Shown here: positions 17,523 to 19,898 of the stretch, piece by piece
Layout: every line of letters begins with the position of its first letter
Numbering within the stretch: position 1 is the first letter of the stretch
DNA from: an uncultured Spirochaetales bacterium
GTDB taxonomy: Bacteria > Spirochaetota > Spirochaetia > Sphaerochaetales > Sphaerochaetaceae
Length of the DNA stretch: 64,000 nt
NCBI GenBank assembly: GCA_949289305.1
Contig: CASENB010000003.1
Location: forward strand, 62,001-126,000
Reading direction: 5' to 3'
The notes under the pieces: generated by a model
Told to the model about the DNA's origin: nothing
The model's input: only the letters and a program-made list of their open reading frames with translations
Databases searched by the model: none
Made by a program: the position numbers and the translations under genes

Positions 17523-17783
17523 ATGAAAATTATGGCTTATTTAACTTTTAATGATGTTCTAGTGAAGGCAGGAATTACAAACCTTAATAGAGTATTACTT
17601 ATCAGACATTCCTTAAATCATGCAAACTTTGCTAAATGTTATTCTGATTCTCAAAACCGTGATTTATTTATTAAAACATATACAGCATGTCAAAGTATTC
17701 AATACAAAGGGAAATATGACTACGGGGCAGTTTTTAATTTTCCTCTAAAGGATATCTATCATTTAATCCTAATATCGACATAA
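17523..17783 (+). pseudogene. truncated N-terminal part of a GIY-YIG-nuclease-like protein
   Basis: 86 codons. MAYLTFNDVLVKAGITNLNR followed by VLLIRHSLNHANF resembles the N-terminal specificity domain of a family of ~300-residue GIY-YIG nuclease proteins (FNDLL-KAGIDP-VLL-RH pattern); I am working from memory of that pattern. The frame stops after the domain (ending NFPLKDIYHLILIST) and no GIY-YIG catalytic segment follows before the convergent Abi gene. It has a ribosome site (GGGGA). Probably the remnant of a larger defence or mobile gene truncated when the Abi module inserted or the region rearranged. Confidence 0.45.
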
Positions 17784-17816: not shown

Positions 17817-18659
17817 TTACATTAGTTTCATAGCCCAGCCTTCAGGTATTCCAAGATGAACAAGTTCAATAAAACTACTGTACTCCTGAATAAGCAATGA
17901 AAGCTGTGGCATGAATTGATATCTCCATATTCTAGATTCTCCTACCATGTGTTTTAACATAAGCAATTGAGGGTATAATGTTCTTGGAAAGTCAATCTTC
18001 TCTTCTTTAAAAAGCAAAGGAATTGATGTGAAATTCCAGTAATATAGTCTGGAATAATGAGCACATCGATTTCTGAGATCAGTAAGACACCTTAACCAGC
18101 TTTCCATTTTACAATCGGATATACACCCTAAGATTTTCGCAATAGCTTTCTTATCCTCTCGAAGAAGATCTGAATAAAAATATGACAGCATTCCAAGTGA
18201 AAAAAATTCAATAATAACCCAGAAAGGATAATGACCATCATATTTAGCTTCATGATGAGCTACAATCTTTGATGATTTATTTTCTCTTATGCATCTTTCG
18301 AGATGGCTCTTAAAAACCTCGTGATTATGTCGATTAGAAAAATTTCTATCATCCAAATATCCTTCTACTCCATATTTACTGGAAAAATAATAAGAAATCT
18401 TTGCTCTTAAATTAATTTCAATGTTTTCTATTACAGGGAAAATTATTGAGCGAAGTTTAGAATCAAATTCATATATTTTTTTGATCCTACTAAATGGAAT
18501 CCCATCATAATGTCCTTTAAAAGGAAGAAGGAAAGCAGACAAACGATAATAGTTGACACTCTCAAGAAACGAAAGACTATTATCTTCGTCAATTATGATC
18601 CCTTTAATTTTCAATGCTTCAAGTTGCTGCTCATATGTGAAAAAAGGTTTTAGCTTCAA
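17817..18659 (-). CDS. Abi-family (Abi_2/AbiF-AbiD type) HEPN protein
   Basis: About 280 residues from a TTG start at 18659. Abi_2 signatures: KPFFTYEQQLEALKIKGIII at the N-terminus, ESVNYYRLSAFLLPFK, EFDSKLRSIIFPVIENIEI, and the HEPN RNase motif R-X4-H in LRNRCAHYSRLYYW. These proteins abort phage infection, most likely by cutting RNA. The frame is open to an ATG at 18719, but those extra 20 codons are the terminator hairpin of a small RNA and do not look like Abi protein. GAGGGAG, inside that hairpin, is the only ribosome site. No antitoxin protein is adjacent. Confidence 0.85.
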   Translation of the reverse strand: MKLKPFFTYEQQLEALKIKGIIIDEDNSLSFLESVNYYRLSAFLLPFKGHYDGIPFSRIKKIYEFDSKLRSIIFPVIENIEINLRAKISYYFSSKYGVEGYLDDRNFSNRHNHEVFKSHLERCIRENKSSKIVAHHEAKYDGHYPFWVIIEFFSLGMLSYFYSDLLREDKKAIAKILGCISDCKMESWLRCLTDLRNRCAHYSRLYYWNFTSIPLLFKEEKIDFPRTLYPQLLMLKHMVGESRIWRYQFMPQLSLLIQEYSSFIELVHLGIPEGWAMKLM

Positions 18660-18660
18660 A

Positions 18661-18715
18661 AAAAAATGTCTCCCTCTGGGCCACATCACATAAGTGAGAG
18701 GTGCGGGGAGTCCTG
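18661..18715 (-). ncRNA. short structured RNA directly upstream of the Abi gene
   Basis: A predicted RNA of ~55 nt. Nested stem: CTCCC (18710-18706) with GGGAG (18674-18670); inside it CAC/GTG (18703-18701 with 18684-18682); then TCAC/GTGA with loop TTAT (18697-18694, 18689-18686). Nine U residues follow (18666-18658), making a terminator. A promoter lies just upstream. CCUCU (18701-18697) can alternatively pair with AGAGG, so two folds compete. I recall a structured RNA class upstream of abiF genes; this may be a member. Expression and boundaries are inference. Confidence 0.6.
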
Positions 18716-18721
18716 TCATCT

Positions 18722-18752
18722 ATTATAGTAACAAATTTTGAAACGAAGTCAA
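18722..18752 (-). promoter_or_regulatory. promoter of the Abi-associated RNA
   Basis: TTGACT (18752-18747), 19-bp spacer, TATAAT (18727-18722) on the minus strand, placing the start near 18715, just before the hairpin. The inverted repeat ATTTTGAAA/TTTCAAAAT (18735-18743 and 18760-18768) spans the -35 and spacer and could be an operator. Confidence 0.6.
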
Positions 18753-19040
18753 TTATTCTTTTCAAAATAGTATTCTCCTCGTACATCATTCTTACTGCCG
18801 TCGCCATTAATAAATATTCGTATACTACTATACGTATTCTTCCAAAAATATCAGAAGAGCGTATCTACTGCCTTTTTCTTCTCCAATTTAGAAGACTTTC
18901 GTATGAAAATTTCCTTTCATATTATTAATGCAAAAAGACGCATTTTGTTTAATTTTTGAAAAAAACACCCCTAACCTTTTTCATCAAAAAGCCAGAAAGC
19001 ACCTATAGAAAGAAAGGTAAAAAACATTTAGATTTTACTT

Positions 19041-19898
19041 ATGCTTTTTGAAAATGCAGGACTTGTTTTAGAAGGTGGAGCAATGAGAGGCCTGTTCAGC
19101 ATGGGCATTCTCGATTACTTTTTAGAAAAAGATATAATAATAAAGAACGTCGTAGGGATATCTGCAGGCGCTGGTTTTGGCTGCAATTATAAATCAGGGC
19201 AGAAAGAGAGAGCCCTTAGATACTCCAAACGTTTTGCAAAAGATAAAAACTATGCCTCGCTTTATTCTCTTTTAACCACTGGCGACTTATATAACGTAAA
19301 CATGCTTTATAACCTCATCCCATATAAGCTTGATCCGTTTGATAGCGTTTCATATAAAAACAGCCCGATAGATTTCTATGTTGGAGCAACAAATATTGAA
19401 AGCGGAAAATGCGAATTCCATAAATGCGAAAATGGGGATGAGGATGATATCAAATGGTTCAGGGCCTCCGCTTCAATGCCCCTTGTATCTAGAATAGTTG
19501 AAATTAACGGTAAAAAATACCTTGACGGCGGTATTGCTGATTCTATTCCGATATCATTTATGGCTAGCCTTGTAAAAGGAAAAATAATAGTAATTCTCAC
19601 ACAGCCTGAAGGCTTTATAAAAGAAAAGAATAAAGCTATCTCTCTTATTAAGAAAAAATACAGCGCCTATCCAAAACTTGTCGAGGCAATGGAAAGACGC
19701 CATATCATGTATAACGAGGAAGTAAAGCTTACAGAAAAACTTGAAAAGGAAAATCGTGTTCTCATACTACGACCTAAAGAGAGTTTGAATTTGAAACCTG
19801 TGGTACACGATCCTATAAAGCTCGACGAGGCATACAAAAAGGGAAGAGATGTGGCAATAGAGCGCTTTGATGAAATCGTTAAATTTCTAAGTCAATGA
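19041..19898 (+). CDS. patatin-like phospholipase (RssA/YjjU type)
   Basis: 285 residues. Oxyanion loop EGGAMRG (11-17), nucleophile GISAG with Ser41, and catalytic Asp162 in DGG: the complete Ser-Asp dyad of bacterial patatins. Cytoplasmic lipid acyl hydrolase, substrate unknown. TAGATT at 19029-19034 lies exactly six bases before the ATG and no Shine-Dalgarno sequence is present, so it is probably leaderless. It follows the Abi control region but is an ordinary chromosomal family. Confidence 0.87.
   Translation: MLFENAGLVLEGGAMRGLFSMGILDYFLEKDIIIKNVVGISAGAGFGCNYKSGQKERALRYSKRFAKDKNYASLYSLLTTGDLYNVNMLYNLIPYKLDPFDSVSYKNSPIDFYVGATNIESGKCEFHKCENGDEDDIKWFRASASMPLVSRIVEINGKKYLDGGIADSIPISFMASLVKGKIIVILTQPEGFIKEKNKAISLIKKKYSAYPKLVEAMERRHIMYNEEVKLTEKLEKENRVLILRPKESLNLKPVVHDPIKLDEAYKKGRDVAIERFDEIVKFLSQ

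Follow-up and report, generated by a model that had tools for sequence, protein, structure and literature searches.

The window, a stretch of 64,000 nucleotides from a gut spirochaete (2.27 Mb assembly, 30 contigs), encodes on its minus strand an intact Abi_2/AbiD-F HEPN protein, a predicted phage-defence ribonuclease. Directly upstream lies a small structured RNA which, by analogy with characterized relatives, very probably switches AbiF off. Gene and RNA probably form a type III-like RNA-protein toxin-antitoxin, or abortive-infection, module of the AbiF-AbiFr kind, a reading by analogy that is held with considerable confidence. Compared at the sequence level, the RNA falls into an uncatalogued sister class of the Rfam abiF RNA (RF03085), to which it is linked by intermediates. 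The most surprising lead is the presence of abiF-type RNAs in phages; RNAs without a toxin had been missed by the first-pass annotation of this DNA.

The protein was matched by Pfam Abi_2 at 167 bits (cut-off 25.6; 5e-49) and by PADLOC AbiD (2.2e-89). An AlphaFold2 model of it has a pLDDT of 93, and the only significant PDB match found by Foldseek was 8vz6 ('PbAbiF dimer bound to ncRNA'; E 6e-12, TM 0.86), from a Prevotellaceae bacterium. The two proteins, between which this comparison was made, are 25% identical. Pfam, PADLOC, the homologue alignment and the PbAbiF-like fold agree with the earlier assignment of an Abi_2/AbiF HEPN protein carrying RNRCAH. The divergent neighbor (19041-19898, plus strand) is a patatin-like phospholipase with DUF6363, of which this genome has a 42% identical copy on contig C14; a search for this neighbor across the genus established no orthologous empty site. 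Downstream of abiF, an 86-residue open reading frame (17523-17783, plus strand) has a weak PADLOC match to UzuA (2.6e-7) that is confined to positions 1-64 of the 278 in the profile.

The promoter had initially been read as TTGACT-N19-TATAAT. Both hexamers are present (18752-18747 and 18727-18722), but the probable -10 is TACTAT at N16, which has an extended TG and matches TTTGCTANNAT, the sequence that occupies the -10 position when the upstream regions of relatives are compared. The promoter of the locus is therefore probably TTGACT-N16-TACTAT. By itself, a promoter scan did not outperform its shuffled controls (5 found against 6.2 expected). The predicted transcription unit has its promoter, RNA, U-tract and start codon all inside 95 nt (Table 1).

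Table 1. Features of the abiF locus, in window coordinates
Feature	Position	Strand	Basis or remark
abiF gene, 280 aa, TTG start	17817-18659	minus	Pfam Abi_2, PADLOC AbiD, AlphaFold2, Foldseek
HEPN motif R-N-R-C-A-H, residues 196-201	18057-18074	minus	near-invariant in 31 homologues
Putative -35, TTGACT	18747-18752	minus	direct reading and consensus scan; TTGACA at the same position in Brachyspira-type relatives (a putative label)
Probable extended -10, TGT-TACTAT	18725-18733	minus	16 nt from the -35; overlaps TATAAT 18722-18727 (N19 spacing)
abiF-type RNA, ACAGGACTCCCCGCACCTCTCACTTATGTGATGTGGCCCAGAGGGAGACATTTTTTTTT	18658-18716	minus	ACAGGA leader to end of U-tract, about 59 nt; matches of covariance model R1 and covariation
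Outer stem, 5' arm CTCCC	18706-18710	minus	pairs with GGGAG 18670-18674; changes on both sides in 3 of 5 pairs
Middle stem, CAC / GTG	18701-18703 / 18682-18684	minus	every cell paired; one compensatory pair
Apical stem, TCAC / GTGA	18694-18697 / 18686-18689	minus	TTGC/GCAA in relatives is compensatory; RF03085 has no such extension
Single-stranded bulge, GCCCAGA	18675-18681	minus	CA kept in 23 of 23 copies
Outer stem, 3' arm GGGAG	18670-18674	minus	doubles as the gene's only Shine-Dalgarno match, at 10 nt from the TTG start
U-tract, nine U	18658-18666	minus	U-tract kept in AbiF-linked copies

All three nested stems and the nine U residues were found where they had first been described. The outer stem and U-tract form a probable intrinsic terminator, although not a textbook one because three bases (ACA) separate them; a simple terminator scan did not report the hairpin, which it misses owing to the nested loop. 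Single-sequence folding of the RNA with short flanks was slightly better than chance (z -0.8 to -2.0). The proof of the RNA is comparative. The same element, in unrelated flanks, occurs in relatives whose AbiF proteins are 61-65% identical to that of the window. Across six sequences 12 of 12 pairs were kept, with two compensatory pairs (a double change between TCAC/GTGA and TTGC/GCAA), and across 23 sequences 8 of 8 were kept, a result equalled by none of 500 shuffles. When the 23 copies were aligned with MAFFT, pairing was 100% in the outer and middle stems and four pairs changed on both sides; no shuffle reached the paired percentage or the covariation score, and while the shuffles ignore kinship, slid controls were also far lower. 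The check for covariation in homologues that the first-pass annotation had proposed thus returned compensatory changes in all three stems. A covariance model (R1) built from six copies, including that of the window, matched the window copy at E 1.5e-16 in its own genome, with the next site at 0.1. RNAalifold favors a shifted middle stem (CGCA/UGUG), and either register is possible. Taken together, the sequence comparisons indicate that the RNA is a genuine structured element.

Two further pairings were considered. Leader-tail pairing or an AGG/CCU pseudoknot, sought by eye, is not kept in the Brachyspira-type copies. The alternative CCUCU/AGAGG pairing, which had been put forward as a switch, is lost in four of the nine closest copies, with AGCGG or AGUGG in place of AGAGG, and in the other groups; a riboswitch-like switch of this kind was ruled out, as the pairing is not conserved.

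The Rfam abiF covariance model, with which the RNA was originally to be recognized, did not recover it: the window RNA stays below the RF03085 gathering cut-off of 37 bits, and Rfam gave no abiF match in the window at gathering, nor on 18500-19100 at E <= 10. RF03085 has the layout CCCGCC-A-AGC-CUCUCAACGAU-GCU-CAAAUC-GGCGGG. Like it, the window RNA stands upstream of abiF and has two nested stems under a GC-rich outer helix, and the two share the outer stem, a one-nt offset, a 3-bp inner stem, a CUC...AU loop and a 3' bulge. However, the inner stem is AGC/GCU and the bulge CAAAUC in RF03085, whereas the window class has CAC/GUG and NCCCA, together with an extra apical stem, a fixed ACAGGA leader and a fixed GACAU tail. 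L054, one of the intermediates that both models recognize, is a bridge between them (53 bits with R1, 28.5 with RF03085), and 28.5 bits is also the best RF03085 score of a relative of the AbiF-linked type. The class copies searched all miss the RF03085 cut-off of 37, and an intermediate-type phage copy (L112) scores 38.

The RNA class was also compared with AbiF phylogeny. In an IQ-TREE analysis of 36 AbiF proteins, carriers of the window RNA class formed one group (support 98/94), and the RNA-class label changed once on the tree, against 12.2 times when shuffled. Protein searches had found the closest spirochaetes and every carrier of another RNA, but the phage members and several distant spirochaete members had been found through their RNA, so for these the match between class and clade is a matter of consistency and not an independent test. 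The two-part RNA-protein module proposed at the outset is supported by one RNA class going with one AbiF clade, and such a module has been worked out in Clostridioides difficile (PMC12373285). The same genome holds a second AbiF (G000 C29:175791-176429; L004), 35% identical to the first. It has a classical-type abiF RNA upstream (23.7 bits, E 0.031), so that two RNA classes are found in one genome.

R1 was then searched blind against 139 genomes of the family and 393 of the phylum, and found the RNA across Spirochaetota. About 21 new matches were obtained at E <= 1e-3, ten with an AbiF open reading frame of at least 200 residues directly downstream; L074 is an eleventh with such a frame, at an R1 E of 0.002. 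AbiF remnants were confirmed by tblastn behind three more (L049, L051, L061), and one was seen by eye behind the second copy at L057. No AbiF was seen at the remaining matches, one of which is at a contig end. A remnant was not confirmed by tblastn behind L050, L054, L055, L058, L062, L066 or L071, of which L062 ends 98 nt past the RNA. R1 matches fall mostly just 5' of Abi_2 genes or their remnants. At five loci (L047, L048, L049, L051, L052) the RNA is intact beside a truncated, frameshifted or remnant abiF, and decay of the toxin with retention of the RNA is common in these relatives. RNA beside broken abiF, along with RNA alone in phages, fits a trans-acting molecule.

Several other arrangements were observed in these genomes. 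At L057 (the same locus as L015; 1501-1557) and L053 (the same as L027; 1501-1558), a window-type RNA that lacks an AbiF of its own precedes, by about 120-160 nt, a different AbiF (35% identical) equipped with a classical-type abiF RNA. One genome (G055) has three window-type copies on a single contig. Close to AbiF loci of relatives there are also the Rfam RNAs DUF3800-XI (L015 722-770, minus strand) and DUF3800-I (L049 1721-1841, minus strand), which belong to another RNA-linked gene family close to AbiF modules.

The 3' arm of the outer stem doubling as a Shine-Dalgarno sequence is new here and had escaped the earlier reading. With its flanking AGA, GGGAG gives a Shine-Dalgarno duplex of -9.4 kcal/mol. 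Within the window, a Shine-Dalgarno core site was present at 29 of 54 open reading frames and at 113 of 600 random ATGs. The fused site was found at ten loci (the window, L047-L049, L051, L052, L054, L061, L063 and L076); in these the start lies 7-11 nt past the 3' arm, the arm is the only Shine-Dalgarno match, and at most of them it is predicted to be paired in the read-through mRNA. The fused site is limited to part of the class, since Brachyspira-type relatives have their start codon 22-24 nt past the arm and no Shine-Dalgarno sequence, and several phage relatives have a separate one after the U-tract.

The closest characterized counterpart is RCd22-AbiFCd of the C. difficile phi027 prophage, in which the RNA likewise lies just 5' of an Abi_2/AbiF HEPN gene (PMC12373285), with a single promoter, a terminator between the two and an R-N-x-C-A-H motif. 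RCd22 neutralizes AbiF in cis and in trans and co-purifies with it, deletion of RCd22 raises abiF 17-fold through loss of transcription attenuation, and the RNQCAH residues are required for toxicity (PMC12373285). The two differ in layout: the two RF03085 motifs of RCd22 are followed by a terminator hairpin and an AGGTGA site as distinct elements, and its start codon is 168 nt away from the transcription start, whereas in the window a single motif of about 59 nt would serve as candidate antitoxin, terminator and Shine-Dalgarno sequence. PbAbiF-AbiFr is reported to have one RNA per monomer and an inhibitory single-stranded bulge in the RNA (reviewed in PMC12737573), of which the bulge at 18675-18681 may be the positional analogue.

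By close analogy with RCd22-AbiF and PbAbiF-AbiFr, the released RNA is expected to bind the HEPN dimer and keep it inactive, and the U-tract to attenuate transcription. With its start at the (A)ACAGGA leader, which is conserved, transcription would mostly end at the U-tract, yielding an RNA of about 59 nt whose nested stem and single-stranded CCCA bulge would bind the AbiF HEPN dimer and block its active site. Occasional read-through would give AbiF mRNA, with the GGGAG arm as Shine-Dalgarno sequence, so that one fold may inhibit the protein, terminate transcription and hide the ribosome site. AbiF in excess could also attach to its own leader and so halt its own production, and if the supply of RNA were lost in phage infection, the ribonuclease would be freed and growth would stop. 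Toxicity, RNA binding, neutralization, attenuation and the need for the active site were demonstrated on relatives and would extend to the window copy by analogy; the Shine-Dalgarno lock, autoregulation through the leader and the infection trigger are steps that we infer.

A simpler scheme would make the element a cis-acting leader only, an attenuator and ribosome-site lock whose released RNA has no antitoxin activity. Shine-Dalgarno sequence and terminator share one stem just ahead of the start codon, which would suit such a leader, as would the attenuation measured in the C. difficile relative (PMC12373285). However, in the tested relatives the RNA binds AbiF and neutralizes it in trans, RNAs with the same core exist without abiF, usually without a U-tract and with covarying stems, and the bulge and loop letters are conserved beyond the needs of a terminator; a purely cis-acting role is accordingly considered unlikely. 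The first-pass annotation also suggested that the RNA might guide the ribonuclease. A guide that steers AbiF to phage RNA in the manner of Cas13 would suit the proposal that AbiF is ancestral to the HEPN domains of Cas13 (PMC12165695; PMC12737573). Nothing points to such a role: there is no variable spacer, the letters outside the stems are among the most conserved, and the transcript would end at the stem and U-tract. This makes guidance a very improbable function.

It might also be argued that the stem arises incidentally from coding sequence and that the correct product is a 300-residue protein, because the frame, as previously noted, is open across the RNA back to ATG 18719. That ATG is no further downstream than the predicted start of transcription, and the loop of the RNA differs in length by 1-3 nt among relatives, so no conserved reading frame runs through it. 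Relatives read M-x-x-KPFFSYEQQ, with ATG directly after the U-tract, and this aligns with L-K-L-KPFFTYEQQ from TTG 18659 in the window; the TTG (18659-18657) shares its first two bases with the last two T of the nine-T tract. The 20 extra N-terminal residues, which had been judged unlike Abi proteins, are not conserved among relatives. The longer protein thus seems scarcely credible, and the start proposed at TTG 18659 stands. The preferred reading remains an RNA that both controls AbiF expression and inhibits the protein.

Viral sequences gave a further set of RNAs. A search of plasmids gave no match. Pattern searches of IMG/VR returned no matches with the strictest pattern and 8, 17 and 33 contigs with looser ones; 33 contigs contained the 23-base core GCACCTCTYRACRATGTGNCCCA and six contained the classical core. 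An intact AbiF follows some of the viral copies, which have a U-tract (L092, L093, L100, L101, L103, L105), and a broken one follows two (L088, L089), while on about 30 viral contigs the RNA was found with no AbiF on the flanking stretch examined. Solitary RNAs were recorded on phage contigs from IMG/VR and INPHARED (L087, L090, L091, L094-L099, L104, L106-L137) and in named phages (L138-L144, L147-L155). In 22 solitary copies the sequence of the outer stem mostly differs and its pairing holds (mean 5.5 contiguous pairs, against 2.9 in an arm-swapped control; 0 of 20000 as high as observed). A same-strand tRNA lay within 250 nt in 13 of 35 distinct stretches without intact AbiF, two of which hold a broken AbiF, against 2.9 expected (P about 5e-11, independence assumed). 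Other solitary viral copies were located in head and packaging operons or next to connector, scaffold or capsid genes.

The classical RNA was matched in 68 annotated phage records; some 70 phage records have an abiF-type RNA and no AbiF. In cyanophage S-CREM1, where PMC9964418 annotates it as abiF, the RNA lies 4 nt before tRNA-Gly; in S-SZBM1 tRNA-Ala follows it after 5 nt; Bromden has it between tRNA-Gly and tRNA-Lys, Aziz between tRNA-Gly and tRNA-Val, and Mimi in its tRNA array. In T7-like Aeromonas phages the RNA sits between the connector and capsid-assembly genes and, as we read the sequence, just behind a putative T7-type promoter, CCCTGACTATAGGGATAA; its stem shows compensatory changes between phages at the same locus, and seven such loci scored 50-58 bits with RF03085. 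Where phages do encode an AbiF protein, they are mainly those of Streptococcus, Clostridioides and Lactococcus, a set that includes no named genus with solitary RNAs.

These observations tentatively suggest that many kinds of phage may use solitary abiF-type RNAs as trans-acting decoys against host AbiF, with copies in tRNA arrays perhaps obtaining their 3' end through RNase P cleavage of the next tRNA. The idea is likened to the pseudo-ToxI used against ToxIN, another system with an RNA antitoxin and an attenuated toxin gene, where phages can carry the RNA to escape (PMC3475682); the ToxIN toxin fold and RNA are unrelated to those of AbiF, and ToxI is a repeat array. It is possible instead that the solitary phage RNAs are remnants of lost modules, or have another use. 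In the searchable part of the literature mentioning RF03085, no phage-decoy role for abiF RNA was found.

The pairing of a second abiF RNA class, one that Rfam misses, with a distinct AbiF clade makes RNA-protein specificity and cross-neutralization testable, and the window genome has both kinds (L003 and L004). The fused layout would be a minimal antitoxin-attenuator-translation lock within one hairpin. Toxin-free copies, including those of lytic phages that grow on laboratory hosts, make RNA decoys against the family ancestral to Cas13 directly testable, and decoys may explain some of the accessory RNAs of phage tRNA arrays. If the decoy reading is true, the window module would represent one party in an RNA-for-RNA arms race, and the Shine-Dalgarno sequence within its stem a compact variant.
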